This document shows, piece by piece, positions 25,038 to 60,252 of a stretch of 64,000 nt of DNA. Origin of the DNA: Devosia sp. YR412 (lineage in GTDB: Bacteria; Pseudomonadota; Alphaproteobacteria; Rhizobiales; Devosiaceae); the NCBI RefSeq assembly GCF_900110945.1, contig NZ_FOFL01000003.1:427501-491500 (forward strand). Direction: 5' to 3'. Made by a program: the position numbers and the translations under genes. Under the pieces are notes generated by a model, which was not told the origin of the DNA, ran no database searches, and worked only from the letters and a program-made list of their open reading frames with translations. Position 1 is the stretch's first letter. The number at the start of each line of letters is the position of its first letter.

Positions 25038-25721
25038 GTGACAAACGAGCAATTCCGATGGCAGTGGGTACGTCAGCGTCTTAGCGAGGTGCCCGCCGGT
25101 CAGTCGTTGCTCGATGTTGGTGCCGGGGAATGCTTTTATAAGCCGGACGCGGCGCACCTGCATTACGTTGCCCAAGATCTGGCAACCTATGACGGCAAGG
25201 GCGATGGAAAGGGGTTGCAGACGCGAGAGTGGGACACGTCTCAGATCGATATCGTTTGCGACTTGCTCGATATCCCCGAAGACACGCAATATGATGTGGT
25301 CTTGTGCTCCGAAGTTCTGGAGCATGTCGCCGACGCTCCGGCGTCGGTTCGAAAAATGTGCCGACTGGTCAAGCCTGGCGGGCAGATCATCATCACAGCG
25401 CCATTCATTAGCATGACCCATTTTGCCCCGCAGCATTTTGCGACCGGCTTCAGTCGCTACTTCTACGAGCACCATCTGGAAGTGGCCGGATTTGACGTCG
25501 TCCGTATGGACGCAAATGGTAACATGTTCGAGCTTGCGGCCCAGGAGTTCGATCGCGGCATGGATCTGATCGGCGTTTACAGTGGCCAGCCAATGAACAC
25601 CTTTTTGCGCAGGCTGGGTGGCCGGCTGACGCGCATGGTCGCCAGCTACGGTGCTCGTTACCCCCAGTCGTCCGAAATCGGTCTGTTTGGCTGGAACGTT
25701 GTGGCCGTTCGTCGCTCGTAA
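25038..25721 (+). CDS. Class I SAM-dependent methyltransferase
   Basis: A 227-residue Methyltransf_11-like enzyme. The GTG at 25038 has AGGAAG six bases upstream. SAM-binding motif I is LLDVGAGECFYKPD; the later VVLCSEVLEHVADAP and LVKPGGQIIITAPF are the usual motif IV/post regions. It is likely to modify a sugar of the polysaccharide or its precursor. It ends the plus-strand block and converges on the GT-C gene. Confidence 0.86.
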   Translation: MTNEQFRWQWVRQRLSEVPAGQSLLDVGAGECFYKPDAAHLHYVAQDLATYDGKGDGKGLQTREWDTSQIDIVCDLLDIPEDTQYDVVLCSEVLEHVADAPASVRKMCRLVKPGGQIIITAPFISMTHFAPQHFATGFSRYFYEHHLEVAGFDVVRMDANGNMFELAAQEFDRGMDLIGVYSGQPMNTFLRRLGGRLTRMVASYGARYPQSSEIGLFGWNVVAVRRS

Positions 25722-52844: not shown

Positions 52845-53696
52845 TTACGCGCTATACGCCTTCACAGTCTGCTGCTGTTCGCCCAGTCCCTCGATGCCGA
52901 GGCGCATCACATTGCCGGGCTTGAGCCACACCGGTTCCGGCTTGATGCCCATGCCGACGCCTGGCGGGGTGCCGGTGGAGATGATGTCGCCGGGCTGCAG
53001 GCTCATGAACTGGCTGACATAGCTGACCACATGGGCCACGCCGAAGATCATCGTCTTGGTCGAGCCGTTCTGATAGCGATGGCCATCGACCTCTAGCCAG
53101 AGGCCGAGCTGCTGCGGATCGGCGACCTCGTCGCGCGTCACCAGCCAGGGGCCGATCGGCCCGAAGGTGTCGCTGCCCTTGCCCTTGTCCCAGGTGCCAC
53201 CGCGCTCGGTCTGGAAATGGCGCTCCGAGACGTCATTGATCACGCAATAGCCGGCGACATGATCCATGGCGTCGGCCTCGTCGACGTAGCGCGCCTCCTT
53301 GCCGATCACCACGCCGAGCTCGACTTCCCAATCCGGCTTGATGGCATTCTTGGGAATGATCACATCGTCATTGGGGCCGATGATGGCGCTGGTGGCCTTC
53401 ATGAAGATGATCGGCTCGGCCGGGATAGCGGCGCCAGTTTCGGCGGCGTGGTCGGCATAGTTGAGGCCTATGCAGATGAATTTGCCGACCTGGCCGACGC
53501 AGGGGCCGATGCGGTCATTGGCATCGAGCTTGGGCAGCACGCCGATATCCACGGCACGGATCTTTGCCAGGCCTTCCGGCGTCAGCGTCTCGCCGCCGAT
53601 GTCGCCGACAATGCCGCTCAGGTCACGGATCGAGCCGTCTTCGGCCAGGATGGCGGGCTTTTCCGCGCCCTTGGCGCCCACGCGCAACAGTTTCAT
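52845..53696 (-). CDS. FAH-family hydrolase, probable 2,4-diketo-3-deoxy-sugar-acid hydrolase
   Basis: A 283-residue fumarylacetoacetate hydrolase-family enzyme. Motifs are ICIGLNYADHAAETGAAIP, PIIFMKATSAIIGPND, PDWEVELGVVIGK (metal-ligand acids) and STGTPPGVGMG. Members of this clade split 2,4-diketo-3-deoxy-L-fuconate (or -rhamnonate) to pyruvate and L-lactate. The fucU gene 38 bases upstream and the lactate dehydrogenase in the same putative regulon favour that role. Annotation as ureidoglycolate lyase would be a common mislabel. Confidence 0.85.
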   Translation of the reverse strand: MKLLRVGAKGAEKPAILAEDGSIRDLSGIVGDIGGETLTPEGLAKIRAVDIGVLPKLDANDRIGPCVGQVGKFICIGLNYADHAAETGAAIPAEPIIFMKATSAIIGPNDDVIIPKNAIKPDWEVELGVVIGKEARYVDEADAMDHVAGYCVINDVSERHFQTERGGTWDKGKGSDTFGPIGPWLVTRDEVADPQQLGLWLEVDGHRYQNGSTKTMIFGVAHVVSYVSQFMSLQPGDIISTGTPPGVGMGIKPEPVWLKPGNVMRLGIEGLGEQQQTVKAYSA

Positions 53697-53734: not shown

Positions 53735-54166
53735 TCAGTTGGGGCGGATGACGCCCTTTTTCAGCAGCACATTGCCATAGAGCCGGCGCTCGCCGGTCTG
53801 GACAATCGCATAGCCCTTGGAGACGCGCTCGTAGAAGGCAAAGCGCTCCATCGAGCTCAGGCCCATCTTGGATTCGTGGCGCTGGATGATCGTATCCATC
53901 TCGTCCATCACCGGCTCGCGCTGGCCGGCATTGCCGACCACCTGCATGCAGATCGCCGCTTCCTCGACAAAATCGTCGAGCGGCATCAGCGTCAGCACGG
54001 CGTCGAGCACGTCGGTCACGCTGATGCCATCGAGCCGCACCAGCGCCGGTCCGGCCGCGTCGGCTGGGTAATTGGCATCGACCAGCGCGATCTCGTCGCC
54101 ATGGCCCATGGCGCGCAAAATGCCGAGCAGGTCGGGGCCGAGAATCGGCGGAATATTCTTGAGCAT
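53735..54166 (-). CDS. fucU: RbsD/FucU-family sugar mutarotase (L-fucose mutarotase)
   Basis: A 143-residue protein with LGPDLLGILRAMGHGDEIALVDANYPA near the N terminus, where the His is catalytic, and YAIVQTGERRLYGNVLLKKGV at the C terminus. It interconverts alpha and beta anomers, most likely of L-fucose. GAGGA precedes the ATG. It is cotranscribed with gntR upstream and the FAH gene downstream. Confidence 0.9.
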   Translation of the reverse strand: MLKNIPPILGPDLLGILRAMGHGDEIALVDANYPADAAGPALVRLDGISVTDVLDAVLTLMPLDDFVEEAAICMQVVGNAGQREPVMDEMDTIIQRHESKMGLSSMERFAFYERVSKGYAIVQTGERRLYGNVLLKKGVIRPN

Positions 54167-54186: not shown

Positions 54187-54936
54187 CTAACCGAAGGGAA
54201 AACTGTCGCTGTCGCTGCCCAGCGTCTCGCCATCGGCAAAGACCTCCGGGTGTTCGCGGGCGAAGGCGAAGAGCTCGACCATCACCGCATCGATATGAGC
54301 GCGCATGGCTTTCGACGCCTGCGCTGCATCTGCCGCGAGAATGCCGTCAAAGATCGCCTGGTGCTCGGCAATGGTCAAAGCCAGCCGGCGCGGGGTGATG
54401 ATCAGCCGTCGCGCCCGGTCGAGATTGGCGCGGGCCGAATCGATAATGGTCTTGATCCGGGAAAAGCCGAGCGAGCGATAGATGATGTCATGAAACGCGA
54501 TGTCGATATGATGGAAGGCCTCGGCATCGTCGCCTTCGGCCGCAGCGCGCTGCGCGGCCATATTGGCATGCAGCGCCTCGATCAGGCTCTGATCGTGGCT
54601 GCCGATCAGGACGCGCAGTGCTTCCGATTCGAGCCCCTTGCGGATCAGCATATATTCGCGGACGTCGGCAATGCGCACCAGCGAGACCGTGGAACCGCGC
54701 TGCGGCGCGATATCCACCAGGCCCTCGATCTGCAGCCGGGCCAGCGCTTCGCTGACCGGAAAGCGCGAGACGCCCAGTTCGGCGCAGATTTCCGTCTTGT
54801 CGATCATGCTGCCGGGCGGCAGTGCCAGCGTCACGATGGCCGTACGGATCGAATCGGTGACGTCAGCCGTCACGCTGCCGCGGGTCAGCGTCGCGGGTCT
54901 GGTCAAAAATCCGTAGGAACTTGTATGGTTGTTCAT
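54187..54936 (-). CDS. GntR-family (FadR/FCD) transcriptional regulator
   Basis: A 249-residue DNA-binding regulator. The N-terminal winged helix at about 25-90 has ICAELGVSRFPVSEALARLQIEGLVD. An all-helical FCD domain at about 95-235 carries metal/ligand His residues (IDIAFHDIIYRS, LTIAEHQAIFDGI, MRAHIDAVM). A palindrome lies two bases upstream of its start codon, so self-repression is likely, with a sugar acid or related metabolite as inducer. It leads the gntR-fucU-FAH operon. Confidence 0.9.
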   Translation of the reverse strand: MNNHTSSYGFLTRPATLTRGSVTADVTDSIRTAIVTLALPPGSMIDKTEICAELGVSRFPVSEALARLQIEGLVDIAPQRGSTVSLVRIADVREYMLIRKGLESEALRVLIGSHDQSLIEALHANMAAQRAAAEGDDAEAFHHIDIAFHDIIYRSLGFSRIKTIIDSARANLDRARRLIITPRRLALTIAEHQAIFDGILAADAAQASKAMRAHIDAVMVELFAFAREHPEVFADGETLGSDSDSFPFG

Positions 54937-54937
54937 G

Positions 54938-54949
54938 CTAACATGTTAG
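54938..54949. promoter_or_regulatory. Candidate GntR operator in the gntR/uxaA divergent region
   Basis: CTAACATGTTAG, a perfect 12-bp palindrome, ending one base upstream of the gntR ATG region (2 bases from the start codon at 54936). The same 12 bases occur at 59024-59035 before the lactate dehydrogenase gene. Confidence 0.72.
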
Positions 54950-55049
54950 TTAGAAGCAAGGTGCCTTACAAGGACCGCTACGACCGCACTCTGGCGGCAA
55001 AGCAGGTTGGCGTAAAGCGAAGTTGAGACCTCCTGCGAAAGTGCCTGCT

Positions 55050-56600
55050 ATGTCCGAGACCATGACCCGCCCCCGGCCCACCACGCTGGTGCTCAATTCA
55101 TCCGACAATATTGGTGTGGCCCTGGCCAATCTCGATGTCGGCACGGTGACGCCGCAGGGCATAACCATCATCCGCCGCGTGCCGCGCGGGCACAAGTTTG
55201 CCACCAGCGCCATCGCCCCTGGCGCCGCGGTCATCAAGTTCGGCCAGATCATCGGCTTTGCCAAGGTGGCCATTCCCGTTGGCGACTGGATCCATGAGCA
55301 CAATTGCGGCATGGGCGCTGGCGACGGCACGCTGGAGCATGACTATGCCTTTGCCGAGGGCGCCATCGCGCCGCAGATGATCCCGCCCGGCCAGCGCGCG
55401 ACCTTCGAGGGCTTTCGCCGCGCCAATGGCAAGGTCGGCACCCGCAATTATGTCGGCATCCTGACCTCGGTAAACTGCTCGGCCACCGTTGCCAAATTCA
55501 TGGCCGAGGCGATCAATCGCTCCGGCATTCTCGACGACTATCCCAATATCGACGGCGTCATTCCCTTCGTGCATGGCACCGGCTGCGCCATGGATATGCA
55601 GGGCGAGGGCTACCAGATTTTCCGCCGCACCCAATGGGGCTATACCGCTAATCCCAATCTCGGCGCGGCGCTTCTGGTCGGTCTCGGCTGCGAGGCCTTC
55701 CAGATCGACAAGATGAAGGAAAGCTACCAGCTCAGCGAAACCGACACTTTCCAGACCATGACGATCCAGGAGATCGGCGGCACCAAAAAGATGATCGACT
55801 GGGGTGTCGAGCGCATCAAGGAAATGCTGCCGATTGCCGACCGGGCGCGGCGCGAGACGGTGGAAGCCTCCGAACTGACCCTGGCGCTGCAATGCGGTGG
55901 CTCCGACGGTTATTCCGGCATTACCGCTAATCCTGCCCTGGGTGTCGCGGTCGATATTCTGGTCAAGCATGGCGGCACGGCCATTCTCAGCGAGACGCCG
56001 GAAGTCTATGGCGCCGAACACCTGCTGACCCGCCGCGCCGTGTCGCGCGAAGTCGGCGAAAAACTGATCGAGCGCATCCACTGGTGGGAGGATTATACCT
56101 CCCGCAATGGCGGCGAGATGAACAACAACCCGTCCCCCGGCAACAAGCTGGGCGGGCTGACGACGATTCTCGAAAAATCGCTCGGCGCGACGGCCAAGGG
56201 CGGCACCACGCCGCTCACCGCCGTCTATGAATATGCCGAGCAAGTCACCGAAAAAGGCTTTGTCTTCATGGATACGCCCGGCTTCGATCCGGTCTCGGCC
56301 ACGGGGCAGGTGGCCGGCGGCGCCAATGTCCTCGCCTTTACCACCGGGCGCGGCTCAGCCTATGGCTGCAAGCCGGTGCCGTCGATGAAGCTGGCCACCA
56401 ATTCGGAAATGTATGCCCGCATGACGGACGACATGGACATCAATTGCGGCGATATCGTCGAGGGCGTTTCCATCGAGGACAAGGGCCAGCAGATCTTCGA
56501 CATGCTGCTCGATATTGCCTCGGGCAAGCGAACCAAATCCGAGGAACTGGGGTATGGCGACAATGAGTTTGTCCCCTGGCAGGTCGGAGCGGTGATGTGA
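55050..56600 (+). CDS. UxaA-family sugar-acid dehydratase
   Basis: A 516-residue enzyme of the altronate/galactarate dehydratase family. The ATG at 55050 replaces a poor TTG further 5'. The SAF domain occupies about 20-110 with HEHNCGMGAGDG (metal-binding His). The large C-terminal domain has GTRNYVGILTSVNCSATV, FVHGTGCAM and ALQCGGSDGYSGITANPALG. In this context it may dehydrate L-fuconate or a related acid to the 2-keto-3-deoxy form, replacing the enolase-type FucD. Altronate itself is the main alternative. Confidence 0.88.
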   Translation: MSETMTRPRPTTLVLNSSDNIGVALANLDVGTVTPQGITIIRRVPRGHKFATSAIAPGAAVIKFGQIIGFAKVAIPVGDWIHEHNCGMGAGDGTLEHDYAFAEGAIAPQMIPPGQRATFEGFRRANGKVGTRNYVGILTSVNCSATVAKFMAEAINRSGILDDYPNIDGVIPFVHGTGCAMDMQGEGYQIFRRTQWGYTANPNLGAALLVGLGCEAFQIDKMKESYQLSETDTFQTMTIQEIGGTKKMIDWGVERIKEMLPIADRARRETVEASELTLALQCGGSDGYSGITANPALGVAVDILVKHGGTAILSETPEVYGAEHLLTRRAVSREVGEKLIERIHWWEDYTSRNGGEMNNNPSPGNKLGGLTTILEKSLGATAKGGTTPLTAVYEYAEQVTEKGFVFMDTPGFDPVSATGQVAGGANVLAFTTGRGSAYGCKPVPSMKLATNSEMYARMTDDMDINCGDIVEGVSIEDKGQQIFDMLLDIASGKRTKSEELGYGDNEFVPWQVGAVM

Positions 56601-56929
56601 GCACCCAGCAGTCCACGGTCGACTATATCCTCGAACAGAGCGCCGGCGCCGGCACGATGACGGCCAAGAAAATGTTCGGCGAATATGGCCTCTATTGTGA
56701 CGGCAAGGTTATGGCTTTCATGGCCGACGACAAGCTGTTCATCAAACCCACCGAAGCCGGCCGCGCCTATCTCGGCGAAGTGACAGAGGCCGAAGCATAT
56801 CCGGGTTCGAAACTGTATTTCCTGATCGACGGTGAGCACTGGGACGACGCCGACTGGCTGGCTGGCCTGGTCAAGGCCACGGCCGATGACCTGCCCGCGC
56901 CCAAGCCGAAAAAGTCGAAGGCAAAATAG
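56597..56929 (+). CDS. TfoX/Sxy N-terminal domain protein
   Basis: A 110-residue protein. GTMTAKKMFGEYGLYCDGKVMAFMADDKLFIK is the typical TfoX N-terminal domain signature; there is no TfoX C-terminal domain. A Lys-rich tail (KPKKSKAK) could bind nucleic acid. Family members in Alphaproteobacteria have no firm function. The GTG start overlaps the uxaA stop (GTGA). Confidence 0.85.
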   Translation: MSTQQSTVDYILEQSAGAGTMTAKKMFGEYGLYCDGKVMAFMADDKLFIKPTEAGRAYLGEVTEAEAYPGSKLYFLIDGEHWDDADWLAGLVKATADDLPAPKPKKSKAK

Positions 56930-56930
56930 C

Positions 56931-57563
56931 TCAGGCCAGCAGCCGATAGACCGTGCCGACCCGCTCCGTGGTGGTCCGCGCATCCCCCACATCGCCGACC
57001 GCATAGCTCGCCACTGCGCTCAGCCGATTTATCGGCAGATCCCGCCGCCCAGGATCGCCGATCAACACGTCCATTCCAGCCGTCACGCAACGCTGCAGAA
57101 ACGGCAACATGCGCTGCGCCACCTCGGCCAGATAGAACACATCGCCGCCCAGGATCATGTCGAGGCCGGTCGGCGCATCCCCCGCGATATCCACCGCCAC
57201 CAGTGGCAGAGCCACCCCATTTGCCGCAGCATTGAGCGCTATCGCCGCCTGCCCATTGGCATCGATCTCCGCCGCGCTGGCCATGGCGCCCGCCTGCGCT
57301 GCGACAATCCCCACAAGGCCGGACCCAGCCCCCAGATCAAGCACGCGCTTGCCGGCAACCAGCTGCGGTTGCGCCCGAATATGCTGCGCCAGAGCCAGCC
57401 CGCCGGCCCATTGATAGGCCCAATACGGCGCCGCATCATCCGGGGTCACCAGCCGCGACAGCCGGCTGCCGGGATGGGCCGTGTAGAGCACCACGCCCGG
57501 CAGCGACGGCACCGGCTCGAGCTTCAGATTGTCCCCGATGAATGCCGTCGCATCCCGGCTCAA
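56931..57563 (-). CDS. METTL20/ETFB-lysine-methyltransferase-like SAM enzyme
   Basis: A 210-residue seven-beta-strand methyltransferase. The opening PYWAYQWAGGLALA and SAM motif VLDLGAGSGLVGIVAAQAGA, followed by DMILGGDVFY, match the family of ETF-beta lysine methyltransferases. It could trimethylate electron-transfer flavoprotein. The start is TTG at 57563, overlapping the upstream lactonase stop. Confidence 0.82.
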   Translation of the reverse strand: MSRDATAFIGDNLKLEPVPSLPGVVLYTAHPGSRLSRLVTPDDAAPYWAYQWAGGLALAQHIRAQPQLVAGKRVLDLGAGSGLVGIVAAQAGAMASAAEIDANGQAAIALNAAANGVALPLVAVDIAGDAPTGLDMILGGDVFYLAEVAQRMLPFLQRCVTAGMDVLIGDPGRRDLPINRLSAVASYAVGDVGDARTTTERVGTVYRLLA

Positions 57564-58474
57564 GGACGCTGCAATCCGACGGCCTTCACGTCCACGCTCA
57601 TCAGATACTCGCTGCAGGTGATGAACAGCCGGCTGCGATCTGGCCCGCCAAATGTGACATTGGAGGTCTTGGCCCCGGTCTTGACGCGGCCGAGCAAAGT
57701 GCCTTTGGGATCATAGACATTTACGCCCAGCCCGGCGCTGCTCCACACATTGCCGGCGCTATCGAGTCGGAAGCCGTCCGACAGGCCGGAGTCCACATCG
57801 ACAAACACGGAAGGATTCGTCAGCCGCGATCCGCTGACGTCGAATTTTCGAATCTGCGCCGGCCAGTTCGGATCATGGCTCTGTCCGGTATCGGACACAT
57901 AGAGGATCGACTCATCGGCCGAAAAGGCCAGCCCATTGGGCTTGGCGAATTCATCGGCCACGACGCTCAGCGAACCATCTGCCGGATCGAAGCGATAGAC
58001 ATAGCAGCCGTCCTGCTCCTGGTCGGCCTTATAGCCTTCATAGTCGCTGAGGATGCCGTAGGGCGGATCGGTGAACCAGATGCTGCCATCGGATTTCACC
58101 ACCACATCATTGGGAGAATTGAGCCTCTTGCCCCGATGGCGATCGACCAGCGTGGTCACCGTGCCGTCCCATTCGGTGCGCAACACGGCGCGCGCGCCAT
58201 GCGAGCAGGACACCAGCCGCCCCTGGCGATCGCGCGCATTGCCATTGACGAAATTGGACGGCGTGCGGAACGGCGTGACGCCCAATCCGGGCACATATTG
58301 CAGCATGCGATTGTTGGGAATGTCGCTCCACACCAGCACATTGGTGTCGCCGAACCACACCGGCCCCTCGGCCCACAGGCACTGATCATACAGCACCTCG
58401 AGCCGCGCCTCCGCGCTGATCAGCGCATTGAATCTCTTGTCGATAATCTCGATCGCGTCGCCGCCACCAGCCAT
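57560..58474 (-). CDS. SMP-30/gluconolactonase-family sugar lactonase
   Basis: A 304-residue beta-propeller enzyme. AEGPVWFGDTNVLVWSDIPNNRML, NSPNDVVVKSDGSIWFTDPPYG and KPNGLAFSADESILYVSDTG carry the Ca/metal ligands Glu, Asn, Asn and Asp of the SMP-30 family. It opens sugar lactones such as fuconolactone or gluconolactone. GGGAGGA precedes the ATG. It may supply the acid used by the UxaA-family enzyme, but no matching operator is seen before it. Confidence 0.88.
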   Translation of the reverse strand: MAGGGDAIEIIDKRFNALISAEARLEVLYDQCLWAEGPVWFGDTNVLVWSDIPNNRMLQYVPGLGVTPFRTPSNFVNGNARDRQGRLVSCSHGARAVLRTEWDGTVTTLVDRHRGKRLNSPNDVVVKSDGSIWFTDPPYGILSDYEGYKADQEQDGCYVYRFDPADGSLSVVADEFAKPNGLAFSADESILYVSDTGQSHDPNWPAQIRKFDVSGSRLTNPSVFVDVDSGLSDGFRLDSAGNVWSSAGLGVNVYDPKGTLLGRVKTGAKTSNVTFGGPDRSRLFITCSEYLMSVDVKAVGLQRP

Positions 58475-58550
58475 GCCGTTCCTCCCGGTCTTGCTGGCAT
58501 TTGAGGGGAAGGGCCGGGCGGTGGCAAGCTTCGAACCGGCCCGCAGGGCA

Positions 58551-58609
58551 AAATCGCTCCTGTGGAGCGATTTTAGGCGAGAAGGCCATGAGGGCTATGC
58601 TCGAATGGC
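58551..58609 (+). repeat. Hairpin-plus-tail repeat, copy A
   Basis: A perfect 10-bp stem AAATCGCTCC/GGAGCGATTT with a 3-base loop (58551-58573), then a tail containing GAAGGCCATGAGGGC and TGCTCGAATGGC. The tail agrees with copy B at all but three of about 33 positions. The outer half of the stem differs from B with compensating changes on both arms. Confidence 0.75.
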
Positions 58610-58920
58610 TCGTGTCGACTGCAACATCACGACAAAATCTATCCCCTTTATCCCCGCCCCCTCAACCTGCGCGCATACTCTCCTCATCCACCCCGCATCG
58701 GCGGCCTGCAGGCGACAGTGGCGGGAGTGGGCCGGGCACGGGACAATGACAGTCGCCGTGGGTTCACGCCCGGGCCTGTCGGTATGCAAGGATGTACCGG
58801 CCGCCTGACGCGGTTCATAAAACCGGACGTCCCGAGGCGGCGATCGTCTCACTATTCAAATCTCAAGAGGCGAAAGCCGTCTCGGGATCCGCCTCTTCGC
58901 AGCTGGTCTGCGGAGCAGAT

Positions 58921-58979
58921 GAAAGGCTCCGGTGGAGCCTTTCAAAGCAAGAAGGCCATGAGAGCTGTGCTCGAATGGC
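58921..58979 (+). repeat. Hairpin-plus-tail repeat, copy B
   Basis: A perfect 10-bp stem GAAAGGCTCC/GGAGCCTTTC with a 3-base loop (58921-58943), then a tail with GAAGGCCATGAGAGC and TGCTCGAATGGC. Same order and spacing as copy A, 370 bases away, in direct orientation. Confidence 0.75.
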
Positions 58980-59022
58980 AGACACCCGCATCCAGGCGGC
59001 GCTTTCGCACGTCGCATTGACG

Positions 59023-59036
59023 ACTAACATGTTAGT
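59023..59036. promoter_or_regulatory. Candidate GntR operator before the L-lactate dehydrogenase gene
   Basis: ACTAACATGTTAGT, a perfect 14-bp palindrome that contains the 12-bp core found next to gntR. It lies 35 bases upstream of the start codon, well placed for repression. Confidence 0.72.
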
Positions 59037-59070
59037 TGCTAGGGCAGGAGAAATTCTCGGAGTTCCAGGC

Positions 59071-60252
59071 ATGGCCGCGCTCGACAAGATCCTCACCGTC
59101 GATGAAATGAAGACCAAGGCGCGCCGCTCGGTGCCGAAAATGTTCTTCGAATATGCCGACAGCGGCTCCTATACCGAGGGCACCTATCGCGACAACGAGA
59201 GCGATTTCAACAAGATCAAGCTTAAGCAGAAGGTCGCGGTCAACCTTGAGGGCCGCAATCTCAAGACCGAGATGCTGGGCAAGCAGATCACCATGCCGGT
59301 GGCCATCGCCCCGGCGGCGACCGGCGGCATGCAGGTGGCCGATGGCGAGATCAAGGCGGCCAAGGCGGCCGAAAAATACGGCATTCCCTTCGCGCTTTCG
59401 ACCATGGCCGTCTGTTCCATCGAAGACATTGCCGAAAACACCACGGCGCCCTTCTGGTTCCAGCTCTATGTCATGCGCGACCGCGATTTCATCAATCGCC
59501 TGATCGATCGCGCCAAGGCGGCGAAATGTTCGGCGCTGGTGTTGACCATGGACCTGCAGATCCTCGGCCAGCGCCACAAGGACATCCACAACGGCCTCTC
59601 CACCCCGCCCAAGTTCAATGCCTATTCCATCTGGCAGATGATGCAGCACCCGCTGTGGTGCGCCCGCATGCTGGGCACCAAGCGCCACACTTTCCGCAAT
59701 ATCGTCGGCCATGTCTCGGGCGACCATGACCTGGCCTCGCTGTCACAATGGACGGCCAGCCAGTTCGACCCGACCCTCAACTGGGCCGACGTCAAATGGA
59801 TCAAGGAGCGCTTCGGTGGTCCGGTGATCGTCAAGGGCGTGCTCGATCCCGATGATGCGCAGGCCGCGGTGGACAATGGCGCCGATGCGATCGTCGTGTC
59901 CAACCATGGTGGTCGCCAGCTCGATGGCGCGCCCTCGACCATTCGCGTGCTGCCCGAAATCGTCGACCGCGTCGGCAACAAGACCGAGGTCTATCTCGAT
60001 TCTGGCATCCGCTCCGGCCAGGACGTCATCAAGGCGCTTGCCTATGGCGCCAAGGGTACCTTCATCGGTCGGCCGATGCTCTATGGCCTGGGCGCCGGTG
60101 GCGAGGCCGGCGTCACCCGCGTGCTCGATATCATCCGCAAGGAACTCGACACCACTATGGCGCTATGCGGCGAACGCGACATCCTCAATGTCGGCCTGCA
60201 CAATATCTATTCCAACGACATCCCGCCGCGGAACGCGCCGCTGCTGAAATAG
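59071..60252 (+). CDS. lldD: FMN-dependent L-lactate dehydrogenase (alpha-hydroxy acid oxidase family)
   Basis: A 393-residue TIM-barrel flavoenzyme oxidising L-lactate or a related 2-hydroxy acid to the keto acid. I chose the ATG at 59071 because the family N terminus starts there and GGAG lies eight bases upstream; longer frames run through the operator and repeats. Catalytic H279 and R282 are in SNHGGRQLDG, K255 in VKGV. GTFIGRPMLYGLGAGGEAGV binds FMN phosphate. It fits as the last step after the FAH enzyme, which would release L-lactate. Confidence 0.93.
   Translation: MAALDKILTVDEMKTKARRSVPKMFFEYADSGSYTEGTYRDNESDFNKIKLKQKVAVNLEGRNLKTEMLGKQITMPVAIAPAATGGMQVADGEIKAAKAAEKYGIPFALSTMAVCSIEDIAENTTAPFWFQLYVMRDRDFINRLIDRAKAAKCSALVLTMDLQILGQRHKDIHNGLSTPPKFNAYSIWQMMQHPLWCARMLGTKRHTFRNIVGHVSGDHDLASLSQWTASQFDPTLNWADVKWIKERFGGPVIVKGVLDPDDAQAAVDNGADAIVVSNHGGRQLDGAPSTIRVLPEIVDRVGNKTEVYLDSGIRSGQDVIKALAYGAKGTFIGRPMLYGLGAGGEAGVTRVLDIIRKELDTTMALCGERDILNVGLHNIYSNDIPPRNAPLLK

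Follow-up and report, generated by a model that had tools for sequence, protein, structure and literature searches.

The gene gntR of Devosia sp. YR412 lies in the 64,000-nucleotide (nt) stretch that we analysed (contig NZ_FOFL01000003.1, positions 427,501 to 491,500; hereafter the window), where it is divergent from uxaA and shares a strand with fucU and the hydrolase gene FAH. The L-lactate dehydrogenase gene lldD lies beyond uxaA, separated from it by three genes with TfoX-like, methyltransferase and SMP-30-like products; the first-pass annotation of this DNA spoke of four genes on the way to lldD, a number reached only when uxaA is counted. The 12-base palindrome CTAACATGTTAG occurs exactly at 54938-54949, 1 base from the gntR start codon, and again at 59024-59035, where it sits within the 14-base palindrome ACTAACATGTTAGT (59023-59036) and is followed 35 bases further on by the lldD start. 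Both palindromes are exact where they had first been placed. Our sequence analyses indicate that the product of gntR, a GntR/FCD regulator, probably uses both palindromes as operators and most likely acts as the repressor of dispersed genes for the non-phosphorylating breakdown of L-fucose.

From base composition, about 0.0014 exact copies of CTAACATGTTAG are expected per 64 kb. The genome of 3.83 Mb, for which 0.08 are expected, holds four, together with two copies carrying one mismatch. All six stand close upstream of a gene start, the four outside the window at distances of 10–60 nt. Within the window, a search allowing up to two mismatches returned one additional copy, GTAACATGTTCG at 25519-25530, which has two mismatches and is probably a chance match. 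The earlier statement that there is no third copy therefore stands for the window at zero to one mismatch, the further copies lying elsewhere in the genome. What had been called a local regulon is instead a scattered one: six sites or more are present in YR412.

Relatives were collected by scanning with GntR, which gave 78 loci, 49 of them (L020-L068) from Devosia or Devosia-like genomes with 70–90% identity. The exact palindrome adjoins gntR in every one of the 49 loci and precedes lldD in all 20 that include this gene (19 exact, one with a single mismatch). This conservation of sites with the same genes, which had been proposed as a check, lends support to a GntR regulon that takes in uxaA and lldD. 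The palindrome also precedes FAH in 32 of 48 Devosia loci (27 exact, five with one mismatch). Among 61 genomes of the genus, 60 carry the exact palindrome, in 234 copies where about five are expected, while a reversed control occurs in one genome. The sole genome without an exact copy is 62% complete. The variant CTAACATGTCAG is found in 58 of the 61 genomes and its reversed control in three. In a Candidatus Devosia symbiotica contig (L045), uxaA is broken into two fragments and fucU shows only ~50% identity, yet the palindromes beside gntR and before FAH are both preserved, as though decay had reached the genes ahead of the operators.

An additional sample of 40 regions from 18 genomes of the genus held 42 exact sites, of which 41 precede genes of a small set of classes: 15 stand before a gene for a FAD/iron–sulfur (FeS) dehydrogenase, 10 before lldD, eight before a FGGY kinase gene, five between gntR and uxaA, two before a zinc alcohol dehydrogenase gene and one before a short-chain dehydrogenase/reductase (SDR) gene. 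The remaining site, in L164, precedes an epimerase-like gene. None of the 42 precedes the aldo/keto reductase gene. Of the 19 distinct sites upstream of that gene, 18 have the asymmetric sequence CTAACATGTCAG, a ratio that is biased because this class came mostly from a search for CTAACATGTCAG itself. The 30 loci brought in by that search have the site before the aldo/keto reductase gene (16), the FAD/FeS protein gene (three), the FGGY kinase gene (three), FAH (two), the zinc alcohol dehydrogenase gene (one) and other genes (five). When five variants are pooled, 220 of 237 sites, from 179 loci of which some belong to the same genomes, fall within -40 to +120 nt of a listed gene start and 17 lie outside. 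In several genomes, a type II NADH-dehydrogenase-like gene (L018:11131-12432) follows the FGGY kinase gene behind the operator.

Beyond the genus, 35 of 297 genomes of the order contain the exact palindrome (7/7 same-genus genomes, 2/6 other members of the family and 26/284 outside it), compared with 9/297 for the reversed pattern. In 16 of the 26 outside-family genomes a copy lies beside a gntR ortholog, and the other 10 are about at the level of the reversed control. Orthologs were defined as the 41 GntR profile matches of at least 231 bits in the same 297 genomes, above a score gap (the next match scores 216). Sites at up to two mismatches accompany 34 of the 41 (25 exact, four with one mismatch and five with two, the last accepted by position only), and palindrome-adjacent orthologs in other families are 32–62% identical. 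In two outside families the genes are clustered: L225/L226 combine FGGY kinase, aldo/keto reductase, amidohydrolase, gntR, uxaA, SDR and transporter genes with three exact copies, and L237/L238 bring SDR, uxaA, gntR, aldo/keto reductase and FucU genes together. In L069 and L071 of the Rhodobacterales, where GntR identity is 34–38%, a one-mismatch site lies between gntR and uxaA. The operators there are CTAACATGTTAC and CTAACATGTCAG, and aldo/keto reductase, FucU and FAH genes are nearby. One genome of family f22 (G285; L230-L235) has six exact palindromes, of which only the copy in L231 is beside gntR/uxaA; the other five, some at contig ends, are not near any of the regulon genes searched for.

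The upstream sequences suggest how such sites could act (Table 1). All 12 bases of operator 1 are identical in 44/44 distinct sequences from 50 loci, and TTG stands 17 nt upstream of the TAACAT hexamer in each of them. The A of the gntR ATG is the seventh base after this hexamer, and the gntR mRNA is probably leaderless, with its -10 box inside the operator. Outside the family, TTG is found at a spacing of 16–18 nt in 19 of 25 site-bearing ortholog loci, against a background of 84/1250 (6.7%) at other offsets, and the start codon, taken as the first in the open frame and not mapped, lies exactly 1 nt past the site in 29 of 34. Upstream of lldD, 29 distinct sequences have TTG in 28 cases and TTGACG in 25, and 28 carry the exact site. 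The upstream consensus sequences of the FAD/FeS dehydrogenase, aldo/keto reductase, FGGY and uxaA genes contain no convincing -35/-10 pair.

Table 1 Genes, operators and probable promoter elements in the window, and further sites in the genome (C2, C3 and C9, contigs)
Feature	Position	Strand	Description
FAH	52845..53696	-	FAH-family hydrolase; proposed L-2,4-diketo-3-deoxyfuconate hydrolase yielding pyruvate and L-lactate
fucU	53735..54166	-	RbsD/FucU-type L-fucose mutarotase candidate; Pfam RbsD_FucU 136.8 bits
gntR	54187..54936	-	GntR/FCD-family regulator, 249 aa; proposed repressor acting at the palindrome
Operator 1, CTAACATGTTAG	54938..54949	.	Between gntR and uxaA; ends 1 nt before the gntR ATG
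Probable gntR -10 hexamer TAACAT	54943-54948	gntR strand (-)	Inside operator 1
Probable gntR -35 hexamer TTGTAA	54966..54971	-	17 nt upstream of TAACAT
uxaA	55050..56600	+	UxaA/GarD-family sugar-acid dehydratase; proposed L-fuconate and/or D-arabinonate dehydratase
Probable lldD -35 hexamer TTGACG	59017..59022	+	From the upstream consensus
Operator 2, ACTAACATGTTAGT	59023..59036	.	In the 17-nt spacer between the probable lldD -35 and -10
Probable lldD -10 hexamer TAGGGC, weak	59040..59045	+	From its position and the conserved TA in the 29-sequence consensus
lldD	59071..60252	+	FMN-dependent L-lactate dehydrogenase; Pfam FMN_dh 446.2 bits
Exact site	C2:199411		10 nt before gene for 959-aa protein with FAD-oxidase, 4Fe-4S and CCG domains
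Exact site	C9:181663		30 nt before zinc alcohol dehydrogenase gene
One-mismatch site GTAACATGTTAG	C2:809618		60 nt before FGGY kinase gene
One-mismatch site CTAACATGTCAG	C3:118779		29 nt before aldo/keto reductase gene

In the mechanism that we propose, a GntR dimer would bind the palindrome and would thereby cover both the -10 box of the leaderless gntR promoter and, at lldD, the spacer between the -35 and -10 elements, blocking RNA polymerase. Because the operators overlap the probable -10 box of gntR and fill the probable lldD spacer, repression by occlusion is likely at both genes. As FCD regulators usually bind carboxylic acids, according to the relevant part of PMC4494728, we propose a sugar-acid inducer: an acidic intermediate such as L-fuconate or 2-keto-3-deoxyfuconate would bind the FCD domain and release the repressor. 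More speculatively, CTAACATGTCAG might be a weaker operator that allows basal synthesis of the first enzyme, the aldo/keto reductase, so that inducer is made.

The regulator itself combines an N-terminal GntR winged helix (PF00392, 50.7 bits, cut-off 27) with a C-terminal all-helical FCD domain (PF07729, 76.8 bits, cut-off 24.3). Its model is helical, with a predicted local distance difference test (pLDDT) score of 87.8, and its best PDB matches, 7u5q first, are GntR/FCD structures. Operators of the FadR (FCD) subfamily usually read GT...AC, in a palindrome of the form NyGTM-N0-1-KACNy with known exceptions; in FadR, Arg-35 and Arg-45 read G and Glu-34 pairs with Arg-35, -45 and -49 (PMC4494728). 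By contrast, CTAACATGTTAG has the polarity AC-AT-GT, with AC before GT, and so departs from a consensus that is usual in the subfamily, though not strictly defining. At the position of FadR Glu-34 all 86 site-bearing loci, many of them close relatives and some genomes represented twice, have Lys; Arg-45 is kept, Arg or Lys is absent at Arg-35 and Arg is absent at Arg-49. Eleven site-less relatives could be compared (a twelfth, L288, was left out): six show the canonical residues (Glu, Arg/Lys and Arg), and five are of the Lys type and have no site. With close relatives and twice-represented genomes among the 86, a Fisher test on these counts is not a fair one. As read from its residues, the regulator is one without two canonical DNA-contact arginines.

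Most steps of a non-phosphorylating route from L-fucose to pyruvate and L-lactate would be covered by the genes that the palindrome marks. By homology, FucU would be the mutarotase, the aldo/keto reductase the L-fucose dehydrogenase, an amidohydrolase the lactonase, UxaA the fuconate dehydratase and the SDR the 2-keto-3-deoxyfuconate 4-dehydrogenase; FAH would release pyruvate and L-lactate, and LldD would oxidise the latter to pyruvate. Since L-fucose route 3 ends in pyruvate and L-lactate, as described in part of PMC11199699, LldD would be its natural last enzyme, and RhaR regulons offer a precedent for lldD in a deoxysugar regulon (regulon descriptions in PMC3870299). The lldD product falls in the L-lactate dehydrogenase family PRK11197 (417.5, cut-off 376) and below the threshold of the LldD exception model NF033901 (369.6 against 550). 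The UxaA protein matches Pfam GD_AH_C (346.8 bits) and GD_AH_second (147.2 bits), with GarD (6u7l) as its best PDB match; the relevant section of PMC6336799 includes among UxaA/GarD members a D-arabinonate dehydratase with weak L-fuconate activity. The same section describes a Paraburkholderia member of the aldo/keto reductase superfamily that acts on D-arabinose and L-fucose; the best PDB match of the aldo/keto reductase studied here is an L-galactose dehydrogenase.

The SDR bears a site in relatives L132 and L242, where a divergent amidohydrolase gene encodes the lactonase candidate. The closest structures to the L132 SDR are 8xwk, 8y4j and 8y11 (~282 bits), all of the L-2-keto-3-deoxyfuconate (L-KDF) 4-dehydrogenase of Herbaspirillum huttiense, ahead of human BDH2 (2ag5, 271.5). 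The YR412 SDR is 78% identical to that of L132, and its gene follows an ABC transporter and is divergent from an IclR gene and a lactonase candidate (L251, C9:187500-204598) at what is probably the L-fucose uptake locus. FAH has as its best PDB match the L-2,4-diketo-3-deoxyrhamnonate hydrolase 8gsr (332.9 bits; runner-up 188.8), and L-rhamnose was considered as the substrate for this reason; FucU and the SDR, which resembles L-KDF dehydrogenase, speak for L-fucose. The first-pass proposal of L-fucose or L-rhamnose is accordingly narrowed to L-fucose, perhaps with D-arabinose.

Several observations weigh against an L-fucose regulon of this kind. No curated family names FAH, FucU, UxaA or GntR at the equivalog level: FAH scores best with the L-2,4-diketo-3-deoxyrhamnonate/fuconate hydrolase family NF053535 but below its cut-off (432.8 against 500), FucU reaches 119.4 with the NCBIfam L-fucose mutarotase (cut-off 141), and GntR stays far below the cut-offs of UxuR (26/442), PhnR (94.9/271.5), NanR (56.6/260) and CsiR (28.7/218). 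FAH has no site in 16 of the 48 Devosia loci, and neither FAH nor fucU has one of its own in this genome, where both genes would be transcribed with gntR as one operon. Near gntR, seven of the 41 ortholog loci contain no site at up to two mismatches. In the YR412 genome, matches at up to two mismatches are fewer than those of the reversed control (19 against 32, each strand), so that the excess is limited to zero to one mismatch, and two-mismatch sites were left out of the regulon. The 17 kb of the transporter–SDR and IclR–lactonase locus hold no palindrome at up to three mismatches; a second regulator may have taken over this locus, which in relative L243 has CTGACATGTTAG between the transporter–SDR and IclR–lactonase pairs. 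Finally, what the FAD/FeS dehydrogenase, FGGY kinase and zinc alcohol dehydrogenase do is not accounted for by L-fucose alone.

The best-placed alternative is a dual regulon in which L-fucose is broken down to pyruvate and L-lactate and D-arabinose to pyruvate and glycolate by a shared dehydrogenase, dehydratase, SDR and FAH, hence the two 2-hydroxyacid dehydrogenases, LldD and a GlcD/GlcF-like FAD/FeS protein. The FAD/FeS protein forms the class with most exact sites in the 40 additional regions (15/42) and is similar to glycolate oxidase GlcD (171.5 bits, cut-off 567.9) and LctD/D-lactate/glycolate dehydrogenases, although it falls far under every equivalog cut-off. As reported in the relevant passages of PMC6336799, in Herbaspirillum glycolate and lactate arose from D-2-keto-3-deoxypentonate (D-KDP) and L-KDF, respectively, through an SDR and FAH pair, and a dehydratase of the UxaA/GarD family preferred D-arabinonate to L-fuconate. 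An AraD1-family gene (NCBIfam GguC, 551.9, above the cut-off of 340) adjoins the aldo/keto reductase gene. LldD-type enzymes may also accept glycolate, which counts against the dual reading, and the substrates are deduced from homology; we regard the dual regulon as a serious contender that stops short of being probable. The AraD1/GguC gene stands beside the aldo/keto reductase gene in many Devosia loci (L019:8238-9263, L168-L197) and would suit a D-arabinose branch.

It is unlikely that the regulator is instead an LldR-type sensor of lactate or another 2-hydroxyacid that has also captured the sugar genes which supply lactate. Lactate regulators with an FCD domain are known (PMC4494728, in part), and the regulon holds an L-lactate dehydrogenase and a D-2-hydroxyacid-dehydrogenase-like protein, but GntR scores 30.8 with the NCBIfam LldR family NF007741 (cut-off 311), and the LldR sites given in that source read GT...AC, unlike CTAACATGTTAG. 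In other families, moreover, the palindromes have gntR/uxaA, aldo/keto reductase and transporter genes as neighbours, and the stretches fetched there showed no lldD. A different reader of the palindrome, such as the IclR protein of the fucose transporter locus, is very improbable: binding by GntR is a sequence-based prediction and the site of L243 lies beside an IclR gene, but the palindrome keeps its place next to gntR orthologs with as little as 32–35% identity, six relatives with a different, R-type recognition helix have no such site, and the IclR gene of YR412 has no palindrome nearby. Chance or a repeat element, which the five of six G285 copies away from any regulon gene found might suggest, can be set aside for the genus, given the 60/61 genomes, the 49/49 gntR loci, the 41/42 exact sites before regulon genes and flanks that vary while site and promoter bases stay constant.

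The proposed GntR/FCD repressor of L-fucose genes has relatives among known systems. The FadR (FCD) subfamily, including DgoR, LldR, UxuR and VanR (PMC4494728), shares the winged helix and FCD domain, a divergent target gene, a short palindrome and sugar-acid metabolism, and differs in its operator and in contact residues 34, 35 and 49; BioR (TTATMKATAA) and NanR are likewise GntR/FCD proteins that leave the family consensus, with other motifs and pathways. FucR of Halomonas and Rhodobacteraceae bin08 (Leyn 2017, PMC5507952) is a predicted regulator of oxidative L-fucose use with predicted sites; the two systems were compared by description only, and the FucR section of that paper does not mention lldD. 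The relative L069, with its one-mismatch motif, also belongs to the Rhodobacteraceae, and a link between the L069/L071 gntR–uxaA pairs and FucR is possible. The RhaR regulons with lldD or lldEFG (Rodionova 2013, PMC3870299) similarly extend a deoxysugar regulon to L-lactate dehydrogenase, but, in the sections concerned, they serve L-rhamnose through the aldolase/dehydrogenase RhaEW route under LacI, DeoR or AraC regulators. Route 3 (FucM-A-B-C-F-G; PMC11199699, PMC6336799) has the same chain of activities to pyruvate and L-lactate; the Devosia genes differ in being scattered over several contigs and in encoding a UxaA-family rather than an enolase-type dehydratase, and the relevant passages of both papers describe no regulator. 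The part of PMC12595884 on Brucella fucose use contains no link to the Devosia GntR regulator, and a literature search, with subscription papers, supplements and RegPrecise outside its reach, found no paper describing the regulon or the motif.

Tentatively, the Devosia regulator may represent a GntR/FCD subclass with a changed DNA code, in which Glu-34 has become Lys, Arg-35 and Arg-49 are lost and the operator has the inverted polarity AC-AT-GT; that operator would double as the -10 box of the leaderless regulator gene itself, an arrangement kept across several families, and would govern a scattered dual L-fucose/D-arabinose pathway with one flavoprotein dehydrogenase for each 2-hydroxyacid produced. 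If an L-fucose repressor does act at these palindromes, a single 12-base word would annotate a pathway scattered over contigs C2, C3, C4 and C9, beyond the reach of gene-cluster logic, and would give roles to UxaA, aldo/keto reductase and FAH proteins that general annotation leaves vague. The L-lactate dehydrogenase would be explained as the last step of sugar breakdown. In one case, an operator would coincide with a -10 box and with the border of a leaderless start codon. The family would also provide a natural test of how GntR regulators choose their operators, since relatives with and without a site differ at three known DNA-contact positions.

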